This document shows positions 8,659 to 25,423 of a stretch of 64,000 bases of DNA, in pieces. Source of the stretch: Pacificimonas pallii (lineage in GTDB: Bacteria; Pseudomonadota; Alphaproteobacteria; Sphingomonadales; Sphingomonadaceae); the NCBI RefSeq assembly GCF_019204005.1, contig NZ_JAGSPA010000001.1:186001-250000 (forward strand), read 5' to 3'. The position numbers and the translations under genes are program-made. Below the pieces are notes generated by a model. That model made no database searches. It saw nothing but the letters and a program-made list of their open reading frames with translations, and was not told the DNA's origin. The stretch's first letter is position 1. Each line of letters opens with the position of its first letter.

Positions 8659-9539
8659 GGCCGGGAAACGCAATGCTTGGATAGAAAGTGGATGATCGCG
8701 TCGACATCTTCACGGCGATCAAGCAAAGGCGCATGTCCAACCCCTTCGACCAGATTGAACTGTGCATTCGGGTGGCGCGCTATCATGGCCGCAGCGTTTT
8801 CCTCATCTAGAACATTCGATTCAGACCCCCTGAAAAGGAAAAGGGGTGCCCGCAAAGCGCCAAAGGCTTCGTCAAGGTCGAAATCGCCCCGGTGACTGCG
8901 AAGCTGCTGCGCCACTGCCGGATCAAAGTGCAAAGACCATGCGCCGTCATCCCTGCGCCGCGCGCTGTTGATGGCCATATCGACCCATGTTCGTTTGCCG
9001 GACTGCCTCATGCCGAAAGCGCCGAATGCGTTTTTCATGTGGCCGGCAAGGGCGGCGATACTTTCGAACCGCGTGTCGACCGACATCGCCTTAAAGATGG
9101 CATCCGCTATATCGCTGTTTAATTGCGTGCCGACGTCGTTGACGATGAGCGCGGTAATGCGGTCTGCTAAGGCGCCTGCGGATAACCGCATTCCCAACGC
9201 GCCGCCCATGGACACGCCCAGCCAGGCGAGCCTGTTCAGTCCCAGCTGGTCCACCAGCGCCACCGAAATTCGTTCGTAGACATCGAAACAATAGTCGCGA
9301 TCCGGAGCGGCCGACCATGCTGACATTCCGCGGCCGATCATATCCGGGGCAACGCAGTAGAAGTGAGGGGAGAGCTGGCCGGCGAGCTCATCAAAATTCC
9401 GGCTGCTTCCGCCCAGCCCATGCATCAGCACGACAGCAGGCGCAGCTTTTTCCCCCCAGCGGCGAACGCCGATTTCAAAGCCATCGCAGTCGATGATGGT
9501 TTTCGCAGAATTCGCATATGCGCGTCGTTGACTAGTCAC
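8655..9539 (-). CDS. Alpha/beta fold hydrolase (first gene of catabolic operon)
   Basis: This 294-residue alpha/beta hydrolase shows the oxyanion motif LMHGLGG, nucleophile elbow GVSMGG, acid-containing LFRGSES region and the histidine in VEGVGHAPLLD. The start is a GTG at 9539; the only intergenic space to the divergent TetR gene is 71 bases. A palindromic operator-like element (9536-9560) overlaps this start codon, so repressor binding would block transcription or early elongation. It opens a minus-strand operon that runs through ligase, hydrolase, transporter, SDR and crotonase. The GTG start is the best available but a slightly shorter form cannot be excluded. Confidence 0.83.
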   Translation of the reverse strand: MTSQRRAYANSAKTIIDCDGFEIGVRRWGEKAAPAVVLMHGLGGSSRNFDELAGQLSPHFYCVAPDMIGRGMSAWSAAPDRDYCFDVYERISVALVDQLGLNRLAWLGVSMGGALGMRLSAGALADRITALIVNDVGTQLNSDIADAIFKAMSVDTRFESIAALAGHMKNAFGAFGMRQSGKRTWVDMAINSARRRDDGAWSLHFDPAVAQQLRSHRGDFDLDEAFGALRAPLFLFRGSESNVLDEENAAAMIARHPNAQFNLVEGVGHAPLLDRREDVDAIIHFLSKHCVSRP

Positions 9540-10268: not shown

Positions 10269-12350
10269 TTAATATTTGACCGTCGCCGTCAGGCGCCACC
10301 GGGCAGGCAGCCCGGGATAGGTAAAGTTCAGCCCTGGCGCGACTTCAAAAATCTGATCGTTGAATTCCTCATCGAGAATATTCTCGCCAGAGACTGCCAG
10401 TGACCAAAAATCACCTTCCAGCGCGGCGCGGGCTGAAAGCAGTCCGTAGCTGGGCTGGACCAGCGTGTTGGCCTTGTTCCAGGTTTGCGCGCCCTGCAGA
10501 TAATATTCGCTTCGCAACACGAGGTTGAGCCCATCGGATAGCGGCCATCTATATTGCGCGCCTGCATTCACGACCAACTCGGTGCGGAATGGCGTCTGGT
10601 TTCCGACCAAGGCGGGGTTCGGGTCATCCACAATTTTGGTGTCGAGATAATCGAACGTGGCAAAGACGTCGAAACCCTTGGTTGGCTGAACGGCCAGACT
10701 TAATTCAACACCGCGATTTTCGCTTTTGCCGAGATTGTCCGTCGTGGTTATTAGATTGCCAGTGTTCGGATCGGTGATCAGCACCGAGACTTGCTGATTG
10801 CTGTATTCGATATGGTAGGCGGCGATTTCCGCGCGAACCCGGCCATTGAGGAACGCGCTTTTGAGACCCACCTCATATGATTTCAGCGTTTCCGCGCCAA
10901 AGGGAAGCGCACTCGCGGCATCGAATCCGCCGCTTCGGAAGCCTTCGCCATAACTGGCATAAGCCGTCACGTCGTCGGAGATCTCATAGGTGAGGGATAT
11001 TTTGGGCGACGTCTGCTCGGTGGTTTGCCTGTTGGTCGCGATCGCAGGTGTCAGAACGTTCTGAACCTGCTCGTCGCGATCAAACCTCAATGCCGCCCCA
11101 AGTGTAAGCCTGTCAGTCACATCGATATCGAGCTGGCCGAACACGCCGATCCGCTCTCCATTCGTGATATTCGACGAGCCCCCCAGATTTCCAAGGCCGG
11201 CCAGAATCTCGACATCCGCTGTCGAAAATTCGACTTCATTATCTTCGTAAAACGCGCCGGCAAGCCACCTGAATGCCTGATCAGATGGAGACGCCAGCCG
11301 AACCTCCTGCGACAAGGCGCGATAGTCGCTGACGCTTGTTCGCGCGATTTGCAAACCGGGGGTAAAGCCAAAATCAGCGTCCTGGCGCAGGGTTTGATCC
11401 GATGTCACATATTGCGAGATCGATGTGAGCGTCGCGAAATCCAGATCTGCGGTGACCTTCAAGGCCGCATCTATCACGTCGCGCTTGTTGAAACCGTCAG
11501 CCAAGTCGACGACGTTCAGCGCGCCACCTATGTCATCCACATATGTTCGCGCGTCTGCGGTTATGAAGCCTGAATTATAGCCATTATCATATCCGTTTGC
11601 CGAAACTCTCAGATCAACATCAACCGCTGAAGACGGACGCCATAGCAATCGCCCTCGCGCGAAATATTCCTCACGCGTATCCTGATCGTCTCCCAGGCCA
11701 TTGTCGAAAAATCCATCCGATTTGAGGTAGGAGCCACTGAACCTGACGAATAATTCATCAGCGATAATGGGCGTGCCGATCGCTCCGCCAACGCTATACT
11801 CATTGCCAGCGCCATATGTCGCGCGACCGCCAAATTCCAAATCATTCGACGGAGATTTTGTGATGATATTGATCACACCGCCGATCGTATCGCGGCCGTA
11901 CAGTGCGCCCTGTGGCCCCTTGATAACCTCGATACGCTCAATATCGAACAACTGATTACGCAGCGGATCGCCAGCGGGAAGATAAACACCGTCAGAAAGG
12001 ACAACGACAGACGGCGCGGTTCCGCCGATCTGGCCGACACCGCGGAAAACGATGATCGGGCGGTCTCCACCCTGAAATCCCTGCTGAACGTTTACGCCGG
12101 GAGTAAGCTGGGCAAAATCGGCGACTTCATCGATTTCCGCATCGTCGATTGCTTGCTCGTTGAAGACCGTGATCGCTTCCGGAACATCAAGCAGCGATTC
12201 CTCACGCAGCCTTGCCGTGACAACAATCGCGCTGTCGTCGACCTCCTGCCCGACTGGTTGCGCCTGCGCGTCATCCTGAGCAGCCGCCTGTGTGTGCTGC
12301 GTCAGTGCCAAGACCGCCCATGCGGCACCCGCCAAACCCCTCGCCTTCAT
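10269..12350 (-). CDS. TonB-dependent outer membrane receptor
   Basis: This 693-residue outer membrane transporter has a signal peptide (about residues 1-25, ending QAAAQ), a TonB-box-like segment DDSAIVVTARL soon after, a plug domain with RIEVIKGPQGALYGRDTIGG, and a long beta-barrel ending in an aromatic residue (TATVKY). No FecR/sigma pair is nearby, so it is more like catabolic TonB receptors that import hydrophobic or aromatic compounds than a siderophore receptor. It is convergent with the TetR gene and divergent from a crotonase/acyl-CoA synthetase pair. Two palindromes in its promoter suggest co-regulation with the catabolic operon. Confidence 0.93.
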   Translation of the reverse strand: MKARGLAGAAWAVLALTQHTQAAAQDDAQAQPVGQEVDDSAIVVTARLREESLLDVPEAITVFNEQAIDDAEIDEVADFAQLTPGVNVQQGFQGGDRPIIVFRGVGQIGGTAPSVVVLSDGVYLPAGDPLRNQLFDIERIEVIKGPQGALYGRDTIGGVINIITKSPSNDLEFGGRATYGAGNEYSVGGAIGTPIIADELFVRFSGSYLKSDGFFDNGLGDDQDTREEYFARGRLLWRPSSAVDVDLRVSANGYDNGYNSGFITADARTYVDDIGGALNVVDLADGFNKRDVIDAALKVTADLDFATLTSISQYVTSDQTLRQDADFGFTPGLQIARTSVSDYRALSQEVRLASPSDQAFRWLAGAFYEDNEVEFSTADVEILAGLGNLGGSSNITNGERIGVFGQLDIDVTDRLTLGAALRFDRDEQVQNVLTPAIATNRQTTEQTSPKISLTYEISDDVTAYASYGEGFRSGGFDAASALPFGAETLKSYEVGLKSAFLNGRVRAEIAAYHIEYSNQQVSVLITDPNTGNLITTTDNLGKSENRGVELSLAVQPTKGFDVFATFDYLDTKIVDDPNPALVGNQTPFRTELVVNAGAQYRWPLSDGLNLVLRSEYYLQGAQTWNKANTLVQPSYGLLSARAALEGDFWSLAVSGENILDEEFNDQIFEVAPGLNFTYPGLPARWRLTATVKY

Positions 12351-12444: not shown

Positions 12445-13227
12445 ATGACTGTATTGAAATGGGAAAATGTGGAGTCAGGCCTTCGCGTGTCGCGCATGGG
12501 GCCTGTGGCGGTCGTCCAGATTGACCGTCCGAGTCGCGCAAACAGCCTGGATATCGAAACCAGCCAAAGCATGGCCCGCATATTTGACGCCTTTGACAGT
12601 GATGACACGGTTGCAGCTGTGATTATCACCGGATCAGGACAACGGCATTTCTGCGCTGGAATGGACCTTGCCTGCGTAAAGCCGGGCGAACGCGTAATCC
12701 TTCCTGAAAGCGGGTTTGGCGGACTGACCGCGCGTGCTTCCGATAAGCCACTGATCGCAGCCGTGAATGGCGTTGCGTTGGGTGGTGGGCTGGAGGTGCT
12801 GCTGGCCTGCGATCTGGTTCTTGCGGCGCCGCACTGCAAATTTGGATTGCCGGAACCCGCGGTCGGACAAGCTGCTCTGGCCGGCGGGTTGGTCCGCCTG
12901 CCGCTGACAATCGGACGCATGCGCGCGATGGAGATGGTCTTGACCGGCCGTCTGATTTCGTCCGCCAGGGCGCTCGAATGGGGATTGGCAAATGAGATTG
13001 TGGCCGACGAACCTGTTCTGGACGCCGCCATAAGGCTCGCAAGCAAGATGGCCGAGCTTGCCCCTCTTGCCCAGCGCGCGTCTAAAGCTGTCATGTTGCA
13101 ATCTGAACGCGCCGCTCTGGCACGGGAAAACCCACGGATTGTCGATACAATGCTCGATAGTAACGACGCCGTTGAGGGCGCGACGGCCTTTTTCGAGAAG
13201 CGAAAACCGATGTGGACGGGGAGGTAA
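12445..13227 (+). CDS. Enoyl-CoA hydratase/isomerase family protein
   Basis: This 260-residue crotonase has the oxyanion segments RHFCAGMDL and NGVALGGGLEVLLACDL, and the segment FGLPEPAVG where hydratases carry their general acid. Family members hydrate or isomerise enoyl-CoA. It is followed after 9 bases by an acyl-CoA synthetase and is divergent from the TonB receptor, so uptake and CoA chemistry are probably switched on together. It is a second, distinct crotonase besides the one at the end of the minus-strand operon. The substrate is not evident. Confidence 0.87.
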   Translation: MTVLKWENVESGLRVSRMGPVAVVQIDRPSRANSLDIETSQSMARIFDAFDSDDTVAAVIITGSGQRHFCAGMDLACVKPGERVILPESGFGGLTARASDKPLIAAVNGVALGGGLEVLLACDLVLAAPHCKFGLPEPAVGQAALAGGLVRLPLTIGRMRAMEMVLTGRLISSARALEWGLANEIVADEPVLDAAIRLASKMAELAPLAQRASKAVMLQSERAALARENPRIVDTMLDSNDAVEGATAFFEKRKPMWTGR

Positions 13228-13236
13228 GCGGTCCGG

Positions 13237-14904
13237 ATGAATAAATTGAGTTATGTGCACGGCGCTGTTGATGAGCCTTTGATCTATTCAACAATAGGGT
13301 CTTTGCTGGATAAAGTGGCGCAAACACATGGCGACCGCGAGGCTGTCGTCATGTTGCACCAGGACTGGCGGATGACTTATGCTGAATTGGCAGACGCTGC
13401 GGATGCAATCGCGGCCAATCTTCTGGACCTTGGCCTTAGGCCAGGCGACCGGGTAGGCATCTGGTCCCACAATCGGATGGAATGGCTGTTAACGCAATAT
13501 GCGACTGCCAAAGCGGGGCTGATCCTGGTGACGATCAATCCGGCTTACCGCAAATCCGAGCTAGCCTATGCGCTTGCGAAAGTGGGCTGCCGCGCGCTCA
13601 TTCTGGCGGATCGTTTCAAGACCAGCGATTACCATGCCATGATCCTGGACCTGGTCCCGGAATTGGCAGATGCCGCGTCCGGACCATTACAAGCCCAGGC
13701 CTTTCCAGAGTTGAAATTCGTCATCGCTCTGGGTGAAACTCAGCCGCCGGGCTTTATCCCATTCGCTCATTTGCAAAGGATACCCACCGAACAGGCGCGG
13801 CACAGCCTCGCTGACATCACACGCGACCTCCAGCCCGACGATCCCGTCAACATACAGTTTACCAGCGGCACAACCGGCAATCCGAAGGGAGCGACGCTTA
13901 CGCACTTCAATATTGTCAACAATGGATATTTCACCGCCAAGACCCAGGCCTTCGGTGCTGAAGACCGCGTGTGCGTACCGGTGCCGCTATATCATTGCTT
14001 TGGAATGGTACTCGCGAATCTCGCCTGCCTGCCTGCGGCAGCCGCTGCCATCTTCCCGTCCGAGTCTTTCGAACCAGAAGCGACCCTGCTCGCGCTGCAG
14101 CATGAGGGATGCACGGCGCTTTACGGGGTACCCGCAATGTTTACGGCACTGATCGAAGCTGCCGAAGGAAGCGATATGGACGTATCAAACCTACGTACCG
14201 GGATCATGGCGGGATCACCCTGCCCCATTGAGTTGATGAAGCGCGTTATCGCCGACTTCGGACTGACCGATATCACCATCGGATACGGCATGACGGAAAC
14301 AAGTCCGCTGAGTTTTCAATCGGCACTTGATGATACGCTTGACAGGCGGGTCTCCACTGTCGGCCGCGTGCATCCCCACGTGGAAGTCCGGGTGGCGGAC
14401 GATGACGGCAGGACGGTTGAGACCGGCGTCGAAGGTGAAATCCTTACGCGAGGCTATTCGGTCATGCTCGGATATTGGGATGACCCGGAAAAAACCAGTG
14501 AAGCGATCGATCGCCATGGATGGATGCATACTGGAGACTTAGGGACGATCGACGCCCATGGCTATTGCCAGATCGTTGGGCGGAAAAAGGACATGATCAT
14601 CCGTGGCGGCGAGAATATCTCCCCCACTGAAATCGAGAACCACCTTTATAAGCATCCCGATATCAGTGAGGCCGCAATCTTTGGAATCCCCGATGAACGA
14701 CTTGGTGAGATCGTGGCATGCTGGGTCATCCCGAAACCCGGCAGTGAATTGACGCCTGAACGCGTTGTCGAATTCTGCAAGGACCATATCGCCCACTACA
14801 AAGTGCCGGCGCGGGTGCGCCTGGTCGAAGACCTCCCGCGAACCGTTACGGGAAAGATCAAGAAATTCGAAATGCGCGACAGTGAGATCGCACGATCCCG
14901 TTAA
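13237..14904 (+). CDS. Acyl-CoA synthetase (AMP-forming, FadD-like)
   Basis: This 555-residue ANL-family ligase carries FTSGTTGNPKGATLTH, GYGMTETSP, the HTGDLG motif and the hinge GRKKDMIIRGGENISP, and ends with the catalytic lysine motif TVTGKIKK. The length and motifs match medium/long-chain or branched fatty-acyl-CoA synthetases. It lies 9 bases after a crotonase gene in a two-gene plus-strand operon that shares its promoter region with the TonB receptor. It probably activates an imported acid or a downstream intermediate. A second ligase is in the divergent operon, so the pathway may have two acid-activation steps or two acid products. Confidence 0.88.
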   Translation: MNKLSYVHGAVDEPLIYSTIGSLLDKVAQTHGDREAVVMLHQDWRMTYAELADAADAIAANLLDLGLRPGDRVGIWSHNRMEWLLTQYATAKAGLILVTINPAYRKSELAYALAKVGCRALILADRFKTSDYHAMILDLVPELADAASGPLQAQAFPELKFVIALGETQPPGFIPFAHLQRIPTEQARHSLADITRDLQPDDPVNIQFTSGTTGNPKGATLTHFNIVNNGYFTAKTQAFGAEDRVCVPVPLYHCFGMVLANLACLPAAAAAIFPSESFEPEATLLALQHEGCTALYGVPAMFTALIEAAEGSDMDVSNLRTGIMAGSPCPIELMKRVIADFGLTDITIGYGMTETSPLSFQSALDDTLDRRVSTVGRVHPHVEVRVADDDGRTVETGVEGEILTRGYSVMLGYWDDPEKTSEAIDRHGWMHTGDLGTIDAHGYCQIVGRKKDMIIRGGENISPTEIENHLYKHPDISEAAIFGIPDERLGEIVACWVIPKPGSELTPERVVEFCKDHIAHYKVPARVRLVEDLPRTVTGKIKKFEMRDSEIARSR

Positions 14905-15072: not shown

Positions 15073-16275
15073 TCATGTGACGCTGTTGACCTGCTTGTAA
15101 CGCGGATTATCCCATAGCCTGTTCAAGATGACATCTTCCACGACTTCAGCAGCGGTCACGATGTCACCAGTGTCGAGATAGAGAGGTGTAAATCCAAACC
15201 GCATGATGTCGGGTGCCCTGAAATCACCAATCACCCCCCGGTCGATAAGGGCCTGCATCGCGGCATAGCCATGTTCGAACCGGAAAGAGACCTGACTGCC
15301 GCGTGCGGCAGGGTCCCTTGGGCTGACGAGGTGGAGGGCCGGGCATCGTTTCTCGACTTCGGCGATAAAGCGCTCCGACAGTTCGATCGACGCAGCACGG
15401 ACGTCGCCCATGTCCACGCCGTTCCATATCTGCATGGCAGCCTCCAGAGCCGAGAGCTGAATGATGGGCGGGGTGCCGACGCGCATGCGTTCGATGCTGT
15501 TCGCGGGCCGGTAATCGCGATCAAATGCGAAGGGGACGTCGTGCCCCATCCAGCCCGCGAGCGCCGGGCGGACCGTTTCAACAAGGTCAGGCCTGACATA
15601 AATGAACGCTGGCGCGCCCGGGCCGCCGTTCAGATATTTATAGGTGCACCCAACGGCGAATTCACAGCCGGAGTCCGTGAGCTGGACGGGAACCGCGCCT
15701 GCGCTGTGCGCCAGATCCCAGATCATCACGGCACCGGCGTCATGGGCCGCGGACGTAATTCTGTTCATCTCGTGCAGCCGGCCGGTCCGGTAATCGACCT
15801 GCGTGATCATGACGGCCGCCACAGTCTCGTCAATGGACCGCTCAACGGCTTCCGGTGCTACGATCCGAAGTTCATGGCCTTTGTCCAAACTTTCAATAAG
15901 GCCCTGGGCCATGTAGAGGTCGGTGGGGAAATTACCGCTATCGGAAAGGATGATTTTCCGGTCCGGCCGCATCTGCAAGGCCGAGGCGAGCGCCTGATAC
16001 ACTTTGATCGACAGGGTGTCGCCCATGACGATCGATCCGCCAGGCGCGCCGACCAGTTTCGCAATCAGGTCGCCGACACGGGCAGGCTGTTCCATCCATG
16101 CGCACTCGTTCCATGCGCGGATAAGCGCCTGACCCCATTCCCTCTCGACGACTTCGGTGATCCGCCTGGAAGCAATACGCGGCAAAGGCCCAAGAGAGTT
16201 GCCGTCCAGATAAATGACGCCGGACGGAATAACGAACTGCTCTTTTCTAAAAACCGCGCCGCTCTTCATGGTCAT
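15073..16275 (-). CDS. kynU: Kynureninase
   Basis: This 400-residue PLP enzyme cleaves L-kynurenine to anthranilate and alanine. It begins with the conserved YLDGNSLGP (about residues 22-30), contains the cofactor aspartate region VMIWDLAHSAG, and has the PLP-binding lysine at Lys213 in TYKYLNGGPG, as expected for KynU. Its start overlaps the stop of kynA by ATGA, so the two are translationally coupled. The anthranilate produced is the substrate of the ligase encoded in the divergent operon. The formamidase needed between KynA and KynU is not in this operon. Confidence 0.96.
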   Translation of the reverse strand: MTMKSGAVFRKEQFVIPSGVIYLDGNSLGPLPRIASRRITEVVEREWGQALIRAWNECAWMEQPARVGDLIAKLVGAPGGSIVMGDTLSIKVYQALASALQMRPDRKIILSDSGNFPTDLYMAQGLIESLDKGHELRIVAPEAVERSIDETVAAVMITQVDYRTGRLHEMNRITSAAHDAGAVMIWDLAHSAGAVPVQLTDSGCEFAVGCTYKYLNGGPGAPAFIYVRPDLVETVRPALAGWMGHDVPFAFDRDYRPANSIERMRVGTPPIIQLSALEAAMQIWNGVDMGDVRAASIELSERFIAEVEKRCPALHLVSPRDPAARGSQVSFRFEHGYAAMQALIDRGVIGDFRAPDIMRFGFTPLYLDTGDIVTAAEVVEDVILNRLWDNPRYKQVNSVT

Positions 16276-17120
16276 AGCGCGCCCCGCAGATTCCAGAGTT
16301 CAGGAAACAATTCGACTTCCAGCATTTTTCGCAGATACTGCACGCCGACCGTGCCACCAGTTCCGCGCTTAAGACCGATAATGCGTTCGACCGTCGTCAC
16401 ATGGTTGAAACGCCAGCGGCGAAAATAGTCTTCTAAATCGACAAGTTTTTCCGCAAGTTCATACAAGTGCCAGTGCTTTTTCGGATCCTTGTATATCCGA
16501 ATCCACGCCGCCATGACGGCATCATTAGCGACATATGGCCTATTGAGAACATAGACTGACGGATCGAACGTCACGCCACGCGATTTTCCAAGCGCCATCA
16601 GCGCGACCTGATAGATGGAGGGCTGCGCCAGCTCCCGCTCCAGCATTTCAATAAGCTCGGGCCGGTGCTGATGCATCGCCATCATCTTGAGGTTGCGATT
16701 GCCGAGGGAATATTCGATCAGGCGGTACTGGTGGGACTGGAACCCCGATGACTTGCCAAGGTCTTCGCGGAAATGGGTGTACTCGCTCGGCGTCATCGTG
16801 CGCAGTACATCCCAGGCCGAGGTCAATTGATCGAAAATCCGGGCGACACGCGAAAGCATCTTGAACGCAGGCGAAAAATCTCCCTCCGCCAAATTCGCCC
16901 GCGCGGCGTTGAGTTCATGCAGAACCAGCCGCATCCATAACTCGCTCGTCTGATGCTGAATGATAAACAGCATTTCGTCATGGGCACTGGAAAGCGGGTT
17001 CTGCGCGCCGAGTATCTTGTCCATACCCAAATAGTCGCCGTAGCTCATCTCGTCCTTGAAAGACGTGTAAGCACCATCTTCGTTTTTCGCCTTGTCAGTG
17101 CCGGATGACGGACAGTTCAT
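16272..17120 (-). CDS. kynA: Tryptophan 2,3-dioxygenase
   Basis: This 282-residue heme dioxygenase opens the indole ring of L-tryptophan to N-formylkynurenine. Family hallmarks are visible: FIIQHQTSELW with His56 near the active site, and the heme-ligand region DYFRRWRFNHVTTVERIIG with His240. An ideal AAGGAG lies 8 bases before the ATG at 17120. It is the first gene of the kynA-kynU operon and is divergent from the flavin monooxygenase gene of the anthraniloyl-CoA operon; a 30-bp palindrome lies in the region between them. Confidence 0.96.
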   Translation of the reverse strand: MNCPSSGTDKAKNEDGAYTSFKDEMSYGDYLGMDKILGAQNPLSSAHDEMLFIIQHQTSELWMRLVLHELNAARANLAEGDFSPAFKMLSRVARIFDQLTSAWDVLRTMTPSEYTHFREDLGKSSGFQSHQYRLIEYSLGNRNLKMMAMHQHRPELIEMLERELAQPSIYQVALMALGKSRGVTFDPSVYVLNRPYVANDAVMAAWIRIYKDPKKHWHLYELAEKLVDLEDYFRRWRFNHVTTVERIIGLKRGTGGTVGVQYLRKMLEVELFPELWNLRGAL

Positions 17121-17433
17121 TCGTCTAACTCCTTGAGAGACAGCACTCTGGACGACATGAAGGTCCGCCGCTGGCCCTTTGCGTACGCCATATCGCGCTT
17201 CGAAAGCGGAAATATCGACTTGTTCCCGGCAAAACCGGCACCGCCATTCATGGCCTTCCCTTTCGAAATTACCAGAGGTTTCAGCAGAAACTGCATTGGC
17301 AGCCGGCCAATCATAAACGCGAACCCTATTGCTTCAAGCATAAAATTTTAAGCTTGAAGCTTTTCCTTCGATCCGCTAAAGCTGCTGTTCGTGAGGAGCG
17401 TCATATGCGGATCATCAGCGAGGGGGGCCGGGG
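17121..17433. other. Divergent kynA / anthraniloyl-CoA operon promoter region
   Basis: This 313-base region must hold the promoters of both operons. Its main feature is the palindrome at 17331-17360, described separately. A 74-codon minus-strand frame (17117-17341) ends in an ATGA overlap with kynA, but it has no recognisable domain and its start lies inside the palindrome. No RNA gene or terminator was found. Confidence 0.5.
17331..17360. promoter_or_regulatory. 30-bp palindromic operator candidate
   Basis: Two 9-base arms, GCTTCAAGC (17331-17339) and GCTTGAAGC (17352-17360), flank the 10-base palindrome TAAAATTTTA (17341-17350), with one unpaired A on each side. Each arm is itself a near palindrome (GCTT-C-AAGC), and their centres are 21 bases apart. 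The form TTGC-N4-AGCA resembles MarR-family sites, and a MarR gene is in the operon it fronts. Binding is inference. Confidence 0.6.
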
Positions 17434-19728
17434 ATGAAAATCGCATGCCTGGGCGGCGGTCCCGCCGGTCTCTATTTCGCGATATCGATGAAGCTTCGCC
17501 AGAAAGACGCCGAGATCGTCGTTTACGAACGCAATCGGCCGGACGACACCTTCGGCTGGGGCGTCGTCCTGTCCGACGAGACGCTCGCGAACCTGGAGCG
17601 CAACGATCCTGTCAGCGCCGTGCATATCCGCGACAGCTTTGCATATTGGGACGATGTCGCGGTCCATTTCAAAAATGAGCGGATGGTCTCAAGCGGACAT
17701 GGTTTTTGCGGGATCGGCCGCAAGAAGCTGCTTGAAATCCTGCAGGGCCGCGCTCGAGAGCTTGGTGTCGACCTGCGTTTCGAAGTCGAGATCGGTTCCG
17801 CTTCGGCCTATATGGATGAATATGATCTGGTCGTGGCCGCCGATGGATTGAATTCCAAAGCGCGGCTGGAATTTTCCGAAATCTTCAAACCCGACATTGA
17901 CGAGCGGCTTTGCCCCTTTGTCTGGCTTGGCACCCATCAGAAATTCGATGACGCCTTTTCCTTTATCTTTGAGGAGACGGACAAGGGATGGGTCTGGGCG
18001 CATGCCTATCAATTCGATGAGCGCACGGCGACATTCATCGTCGAGTGTTCCCAGGGGACCTTTGATGCATTCGGGTTTGGCGAACTAAGCCAGCAAGAGA
18101 GTATTGCGGTGTGCGAGAAAATTTTCGCCAGACATCTGGGTGGTCATTCCCTGATGACCAATGCGCACCATATACGCGGCTCCGCATGGATCCGTTTCCC
18201 CCGGATCTTATGCGAAAAATGGCATCACGAAAATCTGGTTCTGCTTGGCGATGCCGCGGCGACCGCGCATTTTTCGATTGGCTCCGGCACCAAACTTGCC
18301 TTGGAAAGCGCGATCGCCCTTGCCGGGAAAATCGAAGCATCCGCCGATTTGCCGACGGTGTTTTCAGATTATGAGGCCGAACGAAGGCTCGAAGTTCTTC
18401 GCCTGCAATCCGCAGCCCGCAATTCCGTCGAATGGTTCGAAGACCTGGACCGCTATCTGAAACTCGACCCCGTGCAGTTCAATTATTCGCTGCTCACCCG
18501 GTCGCAGCGGATCAGCCACGAGAATCTGCGCGAACGGGATGCCGACTGGCTGCGTTCGGCCGAGACATGGTTTCAGGAACAGGCAGGCACCCGTTCGGAC
18601 GGTCCGCCTCGCGCGCCCATGTTCGCGCCGTTCGAACTGCGCGGCATGAGCCTCAAGAACCGGGTCGTCGTCTCTCCCATGGCGCAATATAAAGCGGTCG
18701 ATGGCTGTCCGACCGACTGGCACCTTGTCCATTACGGCGAGCGTGCCAAGGGCGGCGCGGCGCTGATCTACACGGAAATGACCTGCGTGTCCGGGACAGG
18801 CCGGATTACACCTGCCTGCCCCGGCCTTTACAAGCCGGAACATGAAGCCGCCTGGACGCGCATTGTGAATTTCGTGCACGCTGAAACCGATGCGAAGATC
18901 TGTTGCCAGATCGGTCATTCCGGCCGGAAGGGGTCGACCCGGATCGGCTGGGAGGACATGGATGCGCCGCTGAACAGCGACAATTGGCCATTGATATCGG
19001 CGTCGGCCATTCCCTGGTCGAACGGCAATGCCGTGCCGCGGGCAATGTCTCGCGAGGACATGGATGAGGTCCGCGATCAATTCCTATCCGCCGCGGCGAT
19101 GGCGGCGCGCGTGGGCTTTGACATGATCGAACTCCACGCCGCCCATGGCTATTTGATCTCCTCCTTCATTTCGCCCGTCTCCAATCATCGCCAGGATGAA
19201 TATGGCGGCTCGCTTGAAAATCGAATGCGCTATCCGCTGGAAGTCTTTGGCGCCATGCGCGATGTCTGGCCAAAGGCGAAGCCGATGTCGGTACGCATCT
19301 CGGCAAATGACTGGGTCGGTGACGACGGTATCACGCCGGAAGAAGCGGTCGCCATCGCACAGATGTTCGCTGATGCCGACGCCGACCTGATCGATGTGTC
19401 GGCGGGCCAGACCTCAACCGAGGCCCAGCCGGTATATGGCCGCATGTTTCAGACGCCGTTCGCGGACCGGATCCGCAACGAGGCCAATGTCAAAACGATG
19501 GCGGTCGGCAATATTTACGAAGCGGATCACGTCAACTCGATCCTGATGGCGGGCCGTGCCGATCTGGTGGCCCTTGGCCGACCGCATCTGGCCGACCCCT
19601 ATTGGACGCTGCATTCAGGCACTGCGATCAGGGATCGGGAGCAGCAATGGCCGCTGCCCTACCTGGCCGGGCGGGACCAGGCCTGGCGACTGGCCGACCG
19701 GAACGAAGAAATGGCAGCCAAAGTATGA
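17434..19728 (+). CDS. 2-aminobenzoyl-CoA monooxygenase/reductase (bifunctional flavoprotein)
   Basis: This 764-residue fusion has an N-terminal FAD-dependent aromatic monooxygenase (GxGxxG in [12 protein letters not shown] at residues 5-16; the second FAD motif LLGDAAA with Asp273). From about residue 396 it continues as an old-yellow-enzyme/NADH:flavin oxidoreductase domain ([41 protein letters not shown]). This architecture is that of anthraniloyl-CoA monooxygenase/reductase, which hydroxylates and then reduces 2-aminobenzoyl-CoA to a non-aromatic cyclic product. Salicylyl-CoA 5-hydroxylase is the main alternative annotation. The divergent kynA-kynU and the ligase downstream favour anthraniloyl-CoA. 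It opens an eight-gene operon. Confidence 0.9.
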
Positions 19729-19735
19729 GTTTGCT

Positions 19736-20491
19736 ATGAGTTTACAGGGCAAACATGCCATAATTTCCGGTGGCGGCTCCGGTGCCGGCGCGGAAATCGC
19801 GGGCAGCCTCAGCGAGGCCGGGGCGAAGGTGACGATCCTTGGTCGCCGCAGGCTTCCGCTCGAAAACGTTGCGGACGCCAATGGTGGTCTGGCCATCATT
19901 TGTGATGTGACGGACCGCGCCGCGCTGGATGACGCAGTGGCACAGGCGATCTCGAAACATGGTCCGGTCGACATCGCCATTGCCAATGCCGGTGCCGCCA
20001 GCAGCCGTCCCTTCGCCGATCTGAAAGTGTCGGACCTTCAGGCTTCGCTCGATGTGAATTTGATTGGCGTCTTCAATCTCTGGCAAAGCTGTCTGCCGTC
20101 GATGCTTGGTCGGGGTTGGGGACGAATGATCGCGATCGCCTCGACCGCAGGGGTGAAGGGCTATCCTTATGTCGCCCCATATTGCGCGGCGAAACACGGT
20201 GTCGTCGGCCTGACCCGCGCCCTGGCGCTGGAGCTGGCGGCCAGGAACATCACGGTGAACTGTATCTGTCCGGGCTTCATGGAAACGCCGATGCTGGATC
20301 GTTCGGTAGAAACCATCGCCGACAAGACCGGAATGTCGACGGCAAAGGCGAGGCAGGCCCTGCAAAGGTCGAATCCGCAGGACCGGTTCATCCAGCCGCA
20401 TGAGGTTGCCAGCGCGGCGCGCTGGCTCTGCGGCGCCGGCGCCGGCGGAATGAACGGGCATGCGCTCACCCTTTCCGGCGGTGAGATATGA
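19736..20491 (+). CDS. SDR family oxidoreductase of anthraniloyl-CoA operon
   Basis: This 251-residue classical SDR has the cofactor motif SGGGSGAG, NAGAAS, and catalytic YCAAK, and ends with the usual C-terminal glycine-rich region. The ATG at 19736 follows the monooxygenase stop by 7 bases, and the longer frame reaching back into that gene is not used. Its stop overlaps the MarR start as ATGA. In the operon it most likely acts as a 3-hydroxyacyl-CoA dehydrogenase or carbonyl reductase on the cyclic or ring-opened CoA intermediate. The exact step is inferred from context. Confidence 0.86.
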   Translation: MSLQGKHAIISGGGSGAGAEIAGSLSEAGAKVTILGRRRLPLENVADANGGLAIICDVTDRAALDDAVAQAISKHGPVDIAIANAGAASSRPFADLKVSDLQASLDVNLIGVFNLWQSCLPSMLGRGWGRMIAIASTAGVKGYPYVAPYCAAKHGVVGLTRALALELAARNITVNCICPGFMETPMLDRSVETIADKTGMSTAKARQALQRSNPQDRFIQPHEVASAARWLCGAGAGGMNGHALTLSGGEI

Positions 20492-20973
20492 CCGCAAAAA
20501 CACCAGCCAGCCCGCAGGAACTACCAAGTAAGGATCGGTTGCGCCTGTGGCTGAAGATCCTGAAAACCGTACGGTTTATCGAGGCGGAGTTACGCGAGAA
20601 TCTACGTACGGAATTCCAGTCCACCTTGCCGCGTTTCGACGTCATGGCGGCGCTGCACCGGTATCCTGCGGGCCTGAAGATGGGTGAACTTTCAGGCGTG
20701 CTGAAAGTCTCCAATGGCAATGTCACTGGCATTGTGGATCGCCTTGTCGACGAGGGCCATGTCGTTCGCGAGTCCGTCCCTGGCGACAGGCGGGCCGCGC
20801 GCGTGCGCCTGACGAGCCGCGGTCGTGACGAGTTTATTGTCCAGGCCGCGGCCCATGAAGCCTGGATCAATGGCCTTTTGCAGGCAGTGGACTCCGCTCA
20901 GGCCGACGAAATTTCTCTCATATTCGATCAAATCCTCGCACCTCATTTCGGGCAGAATCTCAATGACCACTAA
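20488..20973 (+). CDS. MarR family transcriptional regulator
   Basis: This 161-residue winged-helix protein matches MarR architecture. A central DNA-binding domain with [20 protein letters not shown] is followed by the wing ([13 protein letters not shown]), flanked by helical dimerisation segments. It is encoded inside the operon, coupled by ATGA to the SDR and overlapping the following crotonase by 11 bases, which suggests autoregulation. MarR proteins controlling aromatic-CoA pathways often sense the CoA thioester. The palindrome at 17331-17360 is its most likely target. Confidence 0.9.
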
Positions 20974-21766
20974 CGCGCCAAAACACTTCCTGTGCGACAT
21001 TGAAAACGGGGTGGCGACGGTTCGGCTCAATCGGCCGGAACGCAAAAACCCGCTCACCTTCGATAGCTATGCGGAACTGCGTGACTGGTTTCGGGAGTTG
21101 CAATATTCCGAGGAAGTTCATGCTGTGATCTTTGCGTCCAATGGCGGGAACTTTTCCTCTGGCGGCGACGTGCATGAGATCATCGGTCCCCTGACCAGGA
21201 TGAGCATGAAGGAATTGCTCGCCTTCACGCGCATGACAGGTGATTTGGTGAAGGCGATGCTGGGCTGCGGCAAACCTGTCATCGCCGCCATTGACGGTGT
21301 CTGTGTGGGTGCCGGTGCCATTCTGGCAATGGCATCCGATATTCGCTTCACTGCGCCCGCTTCCAAAACGGCATTCCTGTTCACGAAGGTCGGCCTTGCC
21401 GGGTGCGACATGGGCGCCTGCGCCATTCTACCGAGGATCATCGGCCAAGGCAGGGCCGCTGACCTGCTGTTTTCCGGGCGGTCCATGTCCGCGCAGGAAG
21501 GGGAGGCATGGGGTTTTTTCAACCGGATCGTCCCTGCCAATGATCTCCTCGCGGAAGCGCAGAGCTATGCCAGAACCCTCGTCGCTGGTCCGAATTTTGG
21601 GCATATGATGACCAAGACAATGCTGATGCAGGAATGGTCCATGTCGATTGAGCAAGCCATCGAAGCTGAGGCCCAGACACAAGCGATCTGTATGCAAACG
21701 GCCGATTTCGAGCGCGCTTTTCACGCGTTTGTGAAAAAGGAAAAGCCCATGTTCGAGGGCAATTAA
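20963..21766 (+). CDS. Enoyl-CoA hydratase family protein of anthraniloyl-CoA operon
   Basis: This 267-residue crotonase has the oxyanion segments [10 protein letters not shown] and [19 protein letters not shown], followed by [13 protein letters not shown], where hydratases place the catalytic glutamate; here glycine/cysteine take that place, so it may be an isomerase or a ring-opening hydrolase rather than a simple hydratase. The ATG at 20963 overlaps the end of the MarR gene by 11 bases, and its own TAA overlaps the next ATG by one base. Context puts it in beta-oxidation-like conversion of the de-aromatised CoA product. Confidence 0.87.
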
Positions 21767-22932
21767 TGGCGGACAGATCTTTCCTCGATTGGCCGTTTTT
21801 CGAAGACCATCATCGTGTCCTGGCAGAGGAACTCGACGCCTGGGCATCCGTGGCGGCCGAACGGATCGACCATAACGATATCGACAAGGCCTGCGCGCAG
21901 TTCGTCGCCAAACTCGGACAGGATGGCTGGTTGCGGCACAGCGCCGTCGATCCCCGCAGCGCCGATTCAAGAATGGATGTTCGGTCTTTATGCATTGTTC
22001 GGGAAACTCTGGCCCGGCATGATGGCCTGGCCGATTTTGCGTTCGCAATGCAGGGATTGGGGACGGGCGCGATATCGCTTTTTGGCAATGCGGCGCAGCA
22101 ATCGGAATGGCTGACGAAAACCAGAAGCGGCGAAGCCATTTCGGCTTTCGCACTGACGGAGCCGCAATCGGGATCGGATGTTGCAAATTCGGCGATGAGC
22201 GCCGTTCCGGCGGGTGGCCACTATGTCCTCAATGGCCAGAAGACGTGGATATCGAACGGCGGGATTGCGGATGTCTACACGGTTTTCGCAAGAACGGGCG
22301 AAGCCCCGGGAGCAAGGGGACTATCGGCCTTCATCGTCCCCGCCGGCCTTCCCGGTTTTCACATCACCGAGCGATTGGAAACCATCGCGCCGCATCCCCT
22401 GGCGACATTGCAGTTCGATAATTGCAGGGTCCCAAAGGAATATCTGATTGGTGACGCGGGACAGGGGTTCAAGATCGCCATGTCGGTTCTGGATGTTTTC
22501 CGGCCGACGGTCGCTGCGGCAGCGCTGGGCTTTGCGAGACGCGCACTTGACGAAAGTCTGAAGCGAGTGACGACGCGGCAGATCCAGGGGGCATCCCTGT
22601 TCGACCTGCAGATGGTTCAGGGACATATCGCGGACATGGCCGTCGATATCGATGCCGCCGCATTGCTCGTCTATCGTGCGGCCTGGATGAAGGACATGGG
22701 GGTCCCCCGCATTACGCGAGAAGCGGCGATGGCAAAATTATTCGCCACCGACCGGGCGCAGGAGGTGATTGACAAGGCGGTACAGCTGCACGGCGGCGAC
22801 GGCGTGCGATCGGGGCAGAAGGTTGAAGAACTCTACCGTGATATCCGTGCCTTACGTATTTATGAAGGGGCGTCGGATGTTCAAAGGGTGGTCATCGCCC
22901 GGCAGGCGCGCGCAGCGTTTGAGGAAGCGTAG
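21766..22932 (+). CDS. Acyl-CoA dehydrogenase family protein
   Basis: This 388-residue FAD enzyme has the acyl-CoA dehydrogenase signatures [14 protein letters not shown] (FAD/substrate loop), KTWISNGG, and the C-terminal [17 protein letters not shown], whose glutamate is the usual catalytic base. It oxidises an acyl-CoA to the enoyl-CoA and passes electrons to ETF. It starts one base into the upstream stop (TAATG) and is followed after 2 bases by the CoA ligase. In this pathway it would dehydrogenate the alicyclic or ring-opened CoA ester. The precise substrate is inferred. Confidence 0.9.
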
Positions 22933-22934
22933 CG

Positions 22935-24548
22935 ATGCTTGGACCCAGCGCCCATAGCGACACATTCGCCCGTGATCATCTGCCGCCGACCGAGCAATGG
23001 CCGGATTTCCCGCTCGATGGGTTCAGCTATCCCGATCGCGTGAATGTCGGCGTTGAACTGACAGACGCGATTGTCGAAACCGGGATGGGCGACAATATAG
23101 CGCTGATCGGCAATGGCCGCAGACGCACCTATAAGGAATTGGCGGACTGGACCAACCGGCTCGCCCATGTCCTGGTCGACGACCTTGGCGTCAGGCCGGG
23201 AAATCGCATTCTGATCCGGTCCGCCAATAATCCCGCCATGGTGGCGTGCTGGCTCGCGGCGACCAAGGCGGGCGCAGTGGTCGTCAACACGATGCCGATG
23301 CTGCGCGCGGCGGAGCTTGGCAAAATTGTCGACAAGGCGGAAATCGCCTTGGCGTTATGCGACACGCGCCTGATGGATGAAATGACCGCTTGCGCCAAGA
23401 CAAGCAAGCATCTGAAATCTGTCGTGGGGTTCGACGGCACATCCAACCATGATGCCGAACTCGACCGCTTGGCGCTCGAAAAATCAGTGAAATTCGAAGC
23501 GGTTCGAACAGGCCGCGATGATGTCGCATTGCTCGGGTTCACATCGGGAACGACTGGGGAACCCAAGGCGACGATGCATTTTCACCGCGATCTTCTGATC
23601 ATCGCCGATGGCTATGCCAGGGAAGTTCTCGATGTGACGCCGGACGATATTTTCGTGGGCTCACCGCCCCTCGCATTCACCTTCGGTCTCGGCGGGCTCG
23701 CTGTATTCCCGTTGCGGTTTGGCGCGACCGCGACACTGCTGGAGGACGCGTCACCGGCGAACCTCATCAGCATCATCGAGGACTACAAGGCAACGATCTG
23801 CTTTACAGCCCCCACCGCCTACCGGACACTGTTGAAGGCGATCGACGACGGCGCCAATATGCTGTCGCTCCGCGCCGCCGTGTCCGCGGGAGAAGCTCTA
23901 CCGGCACCCGTTTATGATGAATGGATCGCAAAGACGGGCAAGCCGATGCTTGACGGCATTGGCGCGACCGAGATGCTGCATATCTTCATCTCCAACCGTC
24001 TGGACGATCACCGGCCTGCCTGTACCGGCAAAGTGGTTTTTGGCTATGAGGCGCGGATTGTCGACGATGCCGGGCAGGAATTGCCGCGCGGCGAAATCGG
24101 CAAATTGGCGGTTCGCGGACCGACAGGCTGCCGCTATCTCGCCGATGACCGGCAGAGCGACTACGTGCAGGACGGCTGGAATCTGACCGGCGACAGTTTC
24201 ACAATGGACGCGGATGGTTATCTCTATTTCGCCGCGCGCAGTGACGATATGATCATCTCATCGGGATATAATATCGCCGGCCCCGAGGTTGAGGCCGCGC
24301 TTCTGTCTCACGCCGCGGTCATGGAATGCGCCGTTATCGGTAGCCCGAATGAGGATCGGGGTGAGATCGTCGAAGCGCATGTCGTCCTGGCGCCGGGCTG
24401 GGCCGCCGATGATCCTATGAAAAAGGCGCTTCAAGACCATGTCAAAGCGGCGATTGCGCCCTATAAATATCCGCGCAGCATAAAGTTCGCCGCCAGCCTT
24501 CCCAAAACCCAGACCGGAAAAATCCAGCGTTTCCGCTTGCGGGATTGA
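22935..24548 (+). CDS. 2-aminobenzoate-CoA ligase (benzoate-CoA ligase type)
   Basis: This 537-residue ANL ligase has the N-terminal FSYPDRVNVGVELTD region and overall form of benzoate/2-aminobenzoate-CoA ligases, GFTSGTTGEPKATMHFHRD, the hinge RSDDMIISSGYNIAGPEVE and the C-terminal lysine in KTQTGKIQRF. It activates an aromatic acid with ATP and CoA. Anthranilate from kynureninase, encoded divergently, is the obvious substrate, giving anthraniloyl-CoA for the monooxygenase at the head of the operon. Benzoate or another substituted benzoate cannot be excluded from sequence alone. Confidence 0.9.
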   Translation: MLGPSAHSDTFARDHLPPTEQWPDFPLDGFSYPDRVNVGVELTDAIVETGMGDNIALIGNGRRRTYKELADWTNRLAHVLVDDLGVRPGNRILIRSANNPAMVACWLAATKAGAVVVNTMPMLRAAELGKIVDKAEIALALCDTRLMDEMTACAKTSKHLKSVVGFDGTSNHDAELDRLALEKSVKFEAVRTGRDDVALLGFTSGTTGEPKATMHFHRDLLIIADGYAREVLDVTPDDIFVGSPPLAFTFGLGGLAVFPLRFGATATLLEDASPANLISIIEDYKATICFTAPTAYRTLLKAIDDGANMLSLRAAVSAGEALPAPVYDEWIAKTGKPMLDGIGATEMLHIFISNRLDDHRPACTGKVVFGYEARIVDDAGQELPRGEIGKLAVRGPTGCRYLADDRQSDYVQDGWNLTGDSFTMDADGYLYFAARSDDMIISSGYNIAGPEVEAALLSHAAVMECAVIGSPNEDRGEIVEAHVVLAPGWAADDPMKKALQDHVKAAIAPYKYPRSIKFAASLPKTQTGKIQRFRLRD

Positions 24549-24620
24549 CCGCGGGAATGACAGGAATCTCCCCCCCTCTCGAACCGCTAAAATCAGCCAC
24601 TTTGCGCAGACTGTTCTGAC

Positions 24621-25019
24621 ATGCCGTTCACGATAGAACAAAAGGTCCTGTTTCGTCATTGCGACCCTGCGGGAATCGTTTTCTTTCCGCGTTACTTCGA
24701 GATGATCAATGACGCCACGGAGGCCTTCTTCGAATGGCTGGAATATCCATTTGAAAAAATACTGGCCGAAGGCGGCGTGCCAACAGCACAGATCGAGGCA
24801 CAGTTTCAAAATCCTTCCTATCACGGAGATATTTTGGATATTGCCGTATCATGCCTGAAGGTCGGTAGATCGAGCGCCGATATGAAATTTCAGGCAACAT
24901 GCCGCGATCAATTGCGTTTCCTTGCGCATTCGACACTCGTTCACACCGGCACTACTGGTCGTTCCGCCGCGTGGCCGGAGTCACTTCAAACGTCCCTCAG
25001 ACAATCAAGAGAGCGATAA
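24621..25019 (+). CDS. 4-hydroxybenzoyl-CoA thioesterase-like hotdog protein
   Basis: This 132-residue single-hotdog protein has the 4-HBT signature HCDPAGIVFFPRYFEM near residues 13-28, including the Asp that serves as nucleophile or base in the family, and a typical C-terminal RSAAWPESLQTSL segment. It would hydrolyse an aromatic or alicyclic CoA thioester. It lies 72 bases after the ligase in the same direction and 5 bases before the RidA-like gene. A protective role, freeing CoA from stalled intermediates, is plausible. A direct pathway role is also possible. Confidence 0.85.
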   Translation: MPFTIEQKVLFRHCDPAGIVFFPRYFEMINDATEAFFEWLEYPFEKILAEGGVPTAQIEAQFQNPSYHGDILDIAVSCLKVGRSSADMKFQATCRDQLRFLAHSTLVHTGTTGRSAAWPESLQTSLRQSRER

Positions 25020-25024
25020 TCGGC

Positions 25025-25423
25025 ATGCCGCATCATTTTATCCAGCCCGATAACTGGGCCCCTGCAAAAGGCTATGCGAACGGTGTCATGACGGCCGATG
25101 GACGGCTGTTCATAGGCGGCCAGATTGGCTGGAACGAGATGCAGGAGTTTGAAAGTGACGACTTCGTCGCCCAGATGGAGCAGACGTTGAAGAACATTCT
25201 TCAGATCGTTCACACCGCCGGCGGAAAAGCCGAAGATATCACCCGGCTGACCTGGTATGTGACGAGCAAGCGCGAATATCTGAAGCGCCAGAGCGAAGTT
25301 GGCGCGGCTTACCGCAGCGTTCTGGGCAAGCATTTTCCCGCTATGACAATGGTTGTCATTTCAGAGTTGATCGAAGATCGCGCAGTCATCGAAATTGAAG
25401 CAACGGCCGTCATCCCGAATTAG
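25025..25423 (+). CDS. RidA/YjgF/YER057c family protein
   Basis: This 132-residue protein has the RidA fold signature: LFIGGQIGWN, the central FVAQMEQTLKNILQIVHTAG helix, and a C-terminal IEIEATAVIPN strand. RidA proteins speed hydrolysis of reactive enamines and imines, and 2-aminomuconate deaminases belong to the same superfamily. The strand where RidA has its catalytic arginine reads SELIEDR here, so that arginine seems displaced or absent. The monooxygenase product is an enamine (2-amino-enone CoA), so an enamine deaminase here would release the ring nitrogen as ammonia. The ATG at 25025 is 5 bases after the thioesterase stop. Confidence 0.88.
   Translation: MPHHFIQPDNWAPAKGYANGVMTADGRLFIGGQIGWNEMQEFESDDFVAQMEQTLKNILQIVHTAGGKAEDITRLTWYVTSKREYLKRQSEVGAAYRSVLGKHFPAMTMVVISELIEDRAVIEIEATAVIPN

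Follow-up and report, generated by a model that had tools for sequence, protein, structure and literature searches.

The aerobic pathway of Azoarcus evansii that runs through 2-aminobenzoyl-coenzyme A (CoA) uses a CoA ligase, a monooxygenase/reductase flavoenzyme and then beta-oxidation enzymes (PMC4539516; here and below, a PMC number stands for individual passages of that paper). Here we describe a cluster of ten genes at positions 15073-25423 of a 64,000-nucleotide stretch of the Pacificimonas pallii genome (contig 1, 186001-250000; hereafter, the window). The ligase, the monooxygenase/reductase and the beta-oxidation enzymes are common to both systems; in the cluster they are linked to kynA-kynU, a thioesterase and a conserved Rid-family protein without the catalytic arginine. 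Probably, these genes form a co-regulated catabolic module and route that leads from tryptophan through anthraniloyl-CoA. We also favour, with more reserve, a wider interpretation. Rid proteins with Met in place of Arg would be a dedicated subfamily of CoA-thioester enamine hydrolases that remove nitrogen after de-aromatisation in Proteobacteria, Actinobacteria and at least one haloarchaeon. Among the flavoproteins there would be a fork, with an intact reductase leading to the Rid branch and a decayed one leaving a plain 5-hydroxylase followed by a gentisate-type dioxygenase, usually with a thioesterase. Anthraniloyl-CoA would be a hub fed by kynurenine via the ligase or by isatin via isatin hydrolase and IorAB.

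Several other described systems resemble parts of this arrangement. Plasmid pAL1 of Arthrobacter sp. Rue61a has an intact-motif flavoprotein, an assayed anthranilate-CoA ligase (PMC3534580) and a Rid protein with Met at the arginine position (Met-Rid), its gene about 4 kb from that of the flavoprotein. It differs in having PaaX regulators, FAH and cupin genes, and no SDR, crotonase or acyl-CoA dehydrogenase is annotated, nor are kyn genes, within 9 kb on each side. With the bacterial kynBAU pathway the window shares KynA and KynU, whereas its genome has no KynB over cut-off and anthranilate would enter CoA chemistry rather than the anthranilate dioxygenase/catechol route. The iad indole-3-acetate loci of Variovorax and Bradyrhizobium, with IorAB and isatin and isatinate as intermediates, resemble a locus on contig 6 of the same genome; their reported product is anthranilic acid (PMC9613470), whereas we propose that the contig-6 IorAB leads to anthraniloyl-CoA directly. 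RutC and the 2-aminomuconate deaminase AmnE are likewise Rid proteins acting on enamines in catabolic operons and retain the arginine (R104 and R117; PMC8113886, PMC6742747), whereas in the subfamily of the window Met takes its place and the substrate is proposed to be a CoA thioester. The literature passages cited assign no enzyme to the deamination that follows the 2-aminobenzoyl-CoA monooxygenase/reductase, and co-occurrence and active-site data now offer a testable candidate. Neither this role for Rid nor a kyn-linked module is proposed in the titles and abstracts among the open-licence matches listed.

Organization of the cluster and proposed route

The genome (G000) measures 3.02 Mb in 11 contigs; other G-numbers denote genomes compared and L-numbers loci compared. 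Open reading frames (ORFs) and NCBIfam/Pfam matches give two leftward genes (kynA-kynU) and eight rightward genes starting at 17434, which bears out the positions and strands of the initial annotation:

15073..16275, minus strand: kynU, kynureninase (TIGR01814, 271 bits, cut-off 246; KYNU_C PF22580)
16272..17120, minus strand: kynA, tryptophan 2,3-dioxygenase (TIGR03036, 381 bits, slightly below the cut-off of 391; PF03301)
17310..17337, minus strand: weak sigma-70-like promoter match facing kynA, overlapping the operator (9/12 consensus bases)
17331..17360: 30-bp palindromic operator, candidate MarR site (inverted repeat of 15+15 nt, 93% complementary)
17434..19728, plus strand: fused flavoprotein, putative anthraniloyl-CoA (2-aminobenzoyl-CoA) monooxygenase/reductase (NF006101, 1278 bits, cut-off 1078; PF01494, PF00724)
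19736..20491, plus strand: SDR dehydrogenase (PF00106/PF13561; under the cut-off for all 25 NCBIfam matches listed)
20488..20973, plus strand: MarR-family regulator, within the operon (PF12802/PF01047)
20963..21766, plus strand: crotonase (NF006107, 466 bits, cut-off 330)
21766..22932, plus strand: acyl-CoA dehydrogenase (PF00441/PF02770)
22935..24548, plus strand: anthranilate (2-aminobenzoate)-CoA ligase, by homology (TIGR02262, benzoate-CoA ligase family, 365 bits, slightly below the cut-off of 375)
24621..25019, plus strand: hot-dog (4HBT) thioesterase (PF13279)
25025..25423, plus strand: Rid-family protein in which Met107 occupies the position of the RidA catalytic Arg (PF01042, E 5.9e-19)

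kynA, the sole tryptophan 2,3-dioxygenase match in G000, overlaps kynU by 4 nt. The rightward genes overlap or are separated by at most 7 nt throughout, except for 72 nt ahead of the thioesterase gene. The flavoprotein joins FAD monooxygenase (PF01494) and old-yellow-enzyme (PF00724) halves in one ORF. Since NF006101 is named 'bifunctional salicylyl-CoA 5-hydroxylase/oxidoreductase', the anthraniloyl-CoA identity is drawn from context and active-site residues.

We compared the window with 105 other non-redundant flavoprotein loci, of which 25 come from related genomes and 80 are named; the latter are the best matches of a longer list, so frequencies in this set are not population frequencies. 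Near-duplicates L032, L046 and L055 were removed before most counts, and L057 yielded no flavoprotein ORF. Counts for full-flank loci are restricted to the 77 that extend at least 6.5 kb to either side. A further 20 plasmid loci were hand-picked for diversity from 60 listed of 95, before their motif was known. Around the flavoprotein gene, the 105 loci carry SDR (95), MarR (93), crotonase (93), acyl-CoA dehydrogenase (84), ligase (71), Rid (65) and thioesterase (42) genes. On plasmid 1 of Paracoccus denitrificans PD1222 the cluster is complete (L171; Rid gene PDEN_RS25310, marR PDEN_RS25290). The synteny comparison suggested by the initial annotation thus finds the core recurring in 105 loci, 25 of them from related genomes, and a gene set that recurs in this way, with varying completeness, is not a chance assembly. 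Counting against the proposed module, actinobacterial plasmid loci have Rid and ligase genes and no crotonase match.

Built on gene content and order, the operator, co-occurrence and active-site residues, the route proposed for this strain is a prediction in all its chemical and regulatory steps. KynA would convert L-tryptophan to N-formylkynurenine, which a formamidase without a match in G000 would turn into kynurenine; KynU would release anthranilate and alanine, and the ligase would form anthraniloyl-CoA. By C5 hydroxylation and ring hydrogenation the flavoprotein would then give the non-aromatic enamine 2-amino-5-oxocyclohex-1-ene-1-carboxyl-CoA, reportedly the established product in Azoarcus evansii and expected here because both active sites are intact. 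From this enamine, or from the form reduced by the SDR, Rid would release ammonium and leave a 2-oxocyclohexane-carboxyl-CoA. SDR, crotonase and acyl-CoA dehydrogenase would open the ring and feed beta-oxidation, and the thioesterase may rescue CoA from stalled thioesters. MarR bound at 17331-17360 would repress transcription in both directions, and an intermediate of the pathway, perhaps anthraniloyl-CoA, would release it. Our data, which are those of comparative genomics, support the initial proposal that tryptophan is degraded via CoA-bound anthranilate.

Both positions of the crotonase that we take to be those of the classical hydratase Glu pair are replaced in the 88 aligned sequences, and Asp149 is invariant. 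The closest solved relative is 3g64 ('putative enoyl-CoA hydratase'), and our guess is a ring opener or a double-bond isomerase.

An arginine-less Rid protein accompanies the intact reductase

The reductase residues H568, H571 and Y573 (HHY), which we assume to be the active-site residues required for de-aromatisation, are intact in the window flavoprotein. At the sequence level, this supports de-aromatisation by the fused enzyme, as initially suggested. HHY is found in 99 of the 103 full-length proteins, window included, and in all 92 that have crotonase at the locus. The exceptions are L047 and L048 (QHF), L049 (QHY) and L140 (HQG); seven columns separate them from the 92, all within the reductase half. 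By the same motif, the 20 plasmid loci comprise 16 intact, 3 H568Q and 1 haloarchaeal H568N.

Where canonical RidA has its catalytic Arg105, the Rid protein of the window has Met and so does not qualify as canonical; Met107 aligns to the catalytic Arg of 2b33 and 2dyy. The substitution is uniform in three partly overlapping sets: 66/66 Rids with at least 35% identity (the window Rid and those of 65 loci), 20/20 loci fetched around Rid, and 14/14 plasmid Rids (Met read by script in 11 and by eye from the sequence in 3). The identity threshold was 35% in the 105 loci and 25% in the 20 plasmid loci; the two weaker Rid matches among the 105 loci, a second copy in L135 (30% identity) and one in L048 (26%), lack the Met and were left out. 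Plasmid Met-Rids include those of Actinobacteria (28-35% identity) and of a Natronococcus. On the plasmid of Natronococcus sp. CG52 (L187, 6711-11169), flavoprotein, Met-Rid, enoyl-CoA hydratase-like and acyl-CoA dehydrogenase genes lie together, and the pathway may reach archaea.

We then looked at the association between Rid and the flavoprotein across 59 Sphingomonadales genomes. Genomes were counted as flavoprotein-positive when a match covered the monooxygenase half; those with the reductase half only (G010, G015, G028, G033) were counted negative and a contig-end fragment (G046) positive. Rid (E ≤ 1e-12) is present in 26 of the 30 flavoprotein genomes and in none of the 29 without (Fisher test, P-value = 7.8e-13). 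The four Rid-less genomes are G001, G004 and G013, whose loci (L048, L049 and L047, respectively) have a decayed reductase, and G046. Rid may also lie outside the fetched locus: of 21 named genomes without Rid in it, 20 carry Rid elsewhere, the exception being L140 with its broken motif. This test covered 21 of the 40 Rid-less loci (plus 4 Rid-bearing ones) and the 59-genome table covered 9 more, with L072, L078, L081, L082, L087, L105, L118, L132, L143 and L148 outside both. Of the 16 intact plasmid loci, 14 carry Rid at a distance of up to 9 kb and 0 carry a gentisate-type dioxygenase, and none of the 7 loci with H568Q or H571Q has a Met-type Rid. The thioesterase gene adjoins Rid in 15 of the 20 loci fetched around Rid.

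In Rid proteins the arginine contacts ligand carboxylate oxygens, and its replacement by Ala nearly abolishes activity (PMC4433059). A free carboxylate is missing from a CoA thioester, so loss of the arginine would fit a CoA-bound enamine. Rid proteins have also been predicted in other aromatic regulons (PMC6449761). Arthrobacter Rue61a formed a C7H8O4-CoA solely on anthranilate, which its authors considered possibly to be cyclohexanedione-carboxyl-CoA (PMC3534580), a compound that corresponds to the deaminated product. Taken by itself, hydrolysis of the flavoprotein's ring-enamine product by the arginine-less Rid seems to us moderately probable.

Several points weigh against this assignment. 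No arginine-less Rid is known to act as a deaminase: RutC R104A is inactive, and for the arginine-less Rid4-7 the passages cited report no deaminase activity (PMC8113886, PMC4433059). The enamine, which is unstable at pH values under 5, can lose its amino group by hydrolysis (PMC3534580), so Rid may do no more than speed up a spontaneous step. Rue61a also showed hydroxyanthraniloyl-CoA (PMC3534580) and has chromosomal paralogues, and its metabolite is therefore not tied to the pAL1 Rid. Two of the 16 intact plasmid loci have no Rid within 9 kb, and the broken-motif L048 has another Rid-family gene (26% identity, not Met). The module could stand as described with Rid serving as a general imine/enamine scavenger or in another protective role. 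Damage pre-emption is the best-known role of Rid proteins (PMC4433059), and the missing arginine, together with the record of Rid4-7, would suit it. However, a scavenger would hardly track the reductase-intact flavoprotein across genomes and be absent where the motif is broken, and the lost carboxylate contact fits a CoA substrate (PMC4433059). We consider the protective role unlikely, though it is the most serious competitor of a pathway enzyme acting on the CoA-bound enamine.

A conserved operator probably links kynA-kynU to the flavoprotein operon

The operator GCTTCAAGCATAAAATTTTAAGCTTGAAGC (17331-17360) is in the intergenic region shared by kynA and the flavoprotein gene, 73 nt upstream of the flavoprotein ATG and 210 nt upstream of the kynA ATG. 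A first pattern, GCTTNAAGC, was too narrow (matches in 42 of 105 regions versus 13.6 in shuffles) and was therefore replaced by a 30-bp matrix. With it, a site is found in 83 of 102 upstream regions, window included (score > 8; 1.8 expected from shuffles), and under the stricter score > 14 in 74 (0.2 in shuffles). The control is a 2-mer block shuffle, and the matrix was scored on its own training regions, the window alone being scored independently: left out of training, its operator scores 35.0, whereas the 99th percentile of the shuffles is 7.6. In the 3.02-Mb genome the operator is unique at up to 3 mismatches, and a reversed control pattern gave zero matches. We infer that the MarR protein binds the 30-bp operator. 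Promoter and terminator scans were at shuffle level, and the type of sigma-70-like match that faces kynA is no commoner than in shuffles.

Loci with a different gene order are informative. The cluster of Roseivivax halodurans (L112) is split up, and operator copies lie ahead of kynA-kynU, between thioesterase-Rid and the flavoprotein, and ahead of marR; the copy for the detached kynA-kynU has its centre 73 nt upstream of kynA. L089 and L058 have the operator halfway between their divergent kynA and flavoprotein genes. L138 has weaker sites ahead of isatin hydrolase and of Rid, and L170 has a site ahead of thioesterase-Rid. The conserved operator between kynA and the flavoprotein, with the copy ahead of the detached kynA-kynU, argues for genes working as one module, as had been suggested. 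Two observations count against co-regulation: at score 8, no site was found in 19 of the 102 upstream regions, including the Maricaulis loci and L054, and four sites in L090 (372, 2402, 2991 and 17618) are unexplained.

Operator-like sites above 15 without a clear target also occur at L035 3613 (before a TonB-receptor-like gene), L102 18034, L109 8612 and L117 18376. A small cupin gene stands behind an operator-like site at L084 18907-19413 (score 22) and at L125 7551-8117 (score 15). Small cupin genes are near 11 of the 105 flavoprotein loci, and cupin genes are also present in actinobacterial clusters (L182, L184, L185, L186).

Kynurenine and isatin as probable sources of anthraniloyl-CoA

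The window has both KynA and KynU, two markers of the kynBAU pathway. kynA and/or kynU lie within 31 of the 105 loci, scored as ten arrangements, some of them single-gene ones that may be an effect of truncation or thresholds. At least 9 changes are needed to account for kyn linkage on a FastTree tree of 78 flavoproteins. Plasmid loci with kyn genes include Rhodococcus NJ-530 (a tryptophan dioxygenase and kynureninase-like pair), Arthrobacter ERGS1:01 and Aminobacter (kynU); an Ensifer plasmid locus has a kynU match.

The best solved relatives of the ligase are 4wv3, 'Anthranilate-CoA ligase' (289 bits), and the benzoate-CoA ligase 2v7b (265), a homology that does not prove specificity. In the 77-locus set, we found the ligase in all 21 kyn-bearing loci but in only 4 of the 17 loci with isatin hydrolase and/or IorA, versus 54 of the 60 without (Fisher test, P-value = 2.4e-7; 2/11 versus 45/51 with 85% representatives, P-value = 1.1e-5). 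Tree correction weakens the case: the direction of the ligase associations is kept, and neither is significant alone (median P-values 0.06 and 0.25). KynU yields free anthranilate, hence a ligase is needed, whereas none is needed if IorAB takes isatinate to anthraniloyl-CoA; on the simplest reading, IorAB would oxidatively decarboxylate isatinate straight to the thioester. The contrast between 21/21 kyn-bearing and 4/17 isatin-type loci supports, by comparative genomics, the anthranilate substrate first proposed for the ligase.

The genome of the window has genes for both routes: kyn genes and ligase lie in the window, and contig 6 (~26.4-31.4 kb; L068 6418-11389) carries genes for isatin hydrolase, IorA and IorB, together with a divergent MarR gene. 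The contig-6 locus is a probable second entry into anthraniloyl-CoA, from isatin or indole compounds; the main-cluster operator was not found there. One could therefore imagine two independent neighbouring pathways in the window, with kynAU feeding something else and the operon serving environmental anthranilate or isatin. The contig-6 genes, the 74 of 105 loci without kyn genes and the shorter distance of the operator to the flavoprotein gene (73 versus 210 nt) would agree with this. In contrast, the detached kynA-kynU of L112 has its own operator copy, the operator is midway in L089 and L058, and every kyn-bearing full-flank locus has the ligase, which makes two pathways improbable and favours a single module fed by kynurenine.

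The formamidase step is a gap in that module. No KynB (TIGR03035) match over cut-off was found in G000, whereas 14 of the 59 genomes have one. The contig-6 PF04199 protein, the only one in G000, was considered as KynB and rejected, as it matches isatin hydrolase A with E 3.6e-107 versus 9.4e-5 for the KynB 4cob. An alpha/beta hydrolase (NF058665, with a hormone-sensitive lipase family name) is present in 13 of the 31 kyn-bearing loci versus 6 of the other 74 (Fisher test, P-value = 1.2e-4) and never co-occurs with kynB, itself in 4 of the 31. It is a candidate non-orthologous kynurenine formamidase in its own loci; a homologue was not found in G000 in a search without positive control. In most cases the hydrolase gene is oriented divergently to either the flavoprotein gene or marR (L112 15404-16279, L130 1579-2433, L092, L096, L104 and others). 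A 3-HAO search was uninformative, with zero matches in control genomes.

Decayed reductases and gentisate-type dioxygenases

Among the 105 loci, a gentisate-type dioxygenase gene was found in L048, L049 and L140, each with a nitrilase-like gene, and in no other. The L049 dioxygenase reaches neither the gentisate dioxygenase nor the 5-aminosalicylate dioxygenase curated cut-off (322 bits with TIGR02272). All 3 H568Q plasmid loci have the dioxygenase and none has Rid; the haloarchaeal H568N locus has neither. In total, the dioxygenase is present in 6 of 7 H568Q or H571Q loci versus 0 of 115 intact ones (Fisher test, P-value = 1.7e-9), rows that are partly non-independent and in which H568Q and H571Q are separate lesions. 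In the six loci that combine a decayed reductase with this dioxygenase (L048, L049, L140, L173, L174 and L175), a thioesterase gene is found in 5 of 6 and a nitrilase-like gene in 5 of 6.

The gene set with the decayed reductase is a candidate for an anthranilate-to-gentisate route. Conversion of anthranilate to gentisate has been ascribed to an 'unreported enzyme' (PMC6221969), for which these loci suggest genes. Records that bear the salicylyl-CoA 5-hydroxylase name probably represent, in many cases, enzymes that de-aromatise anthraniloyl-CoA.

No TIGR02272 gentisate dioxygenase was found in G000 (4 of 14 control genomes matched, none over cut-off, although the model does give the related L049 protein its 322 bits). 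That the window cluster serves salicylate or another ortho-substituted benzoate, its flavoprotein a salicylyl-CoA 5-hydroxylase and kyn a chance neighbour, would suit the NF006101 name and score, the same name on most annotated plasmid records among the matches listed, and the broken-reductase relatives beside gentisate-type dioxygenases, but we rejected it as very improbable given the intact HHY, the lack of a TIGR02272 match in G000, kyn genes in 31 of 105 loci, a ligase nearest in the PDB to anthranilate-CoA ligase, and a nitrogen-removing Rid that would have no job on salicylate.

The catechol ortho route was likewise rejected. No intradiol dioxygenase (PF00775) was found in G000 (4 of 14 controls are over cut-off), and its single Rieske oxygenase (PF00848) scores 58 bits versus a cut-off of 672 for anthranilate dioxygenase. 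The absence of PF00775 and of an AntA-type enzyme from G000, extradiol enzymes not having been searched for, agrees with the earlier view of a pathway without catechol.

Origin and surroundings of the cluster

The window flavoprotein shares 80% identity with a Rhodobacteraceae protein. In the tree, it falls into a supported 15-row set whose other members are Paracoccaceae, Roseobacteraceae and Ahrensia. Since the other Sphingomonadales rows fall outside that set, lateral acquisition of the cluster is probable; a tRNA gene was not found within the window. To the left of kynU lie genes for an AMP-ligase (7159-8673) and a TonB receptor (10269-12350), and an enoyl-CoA hydratase and acyl-CoA ligase pair (12445-14904).

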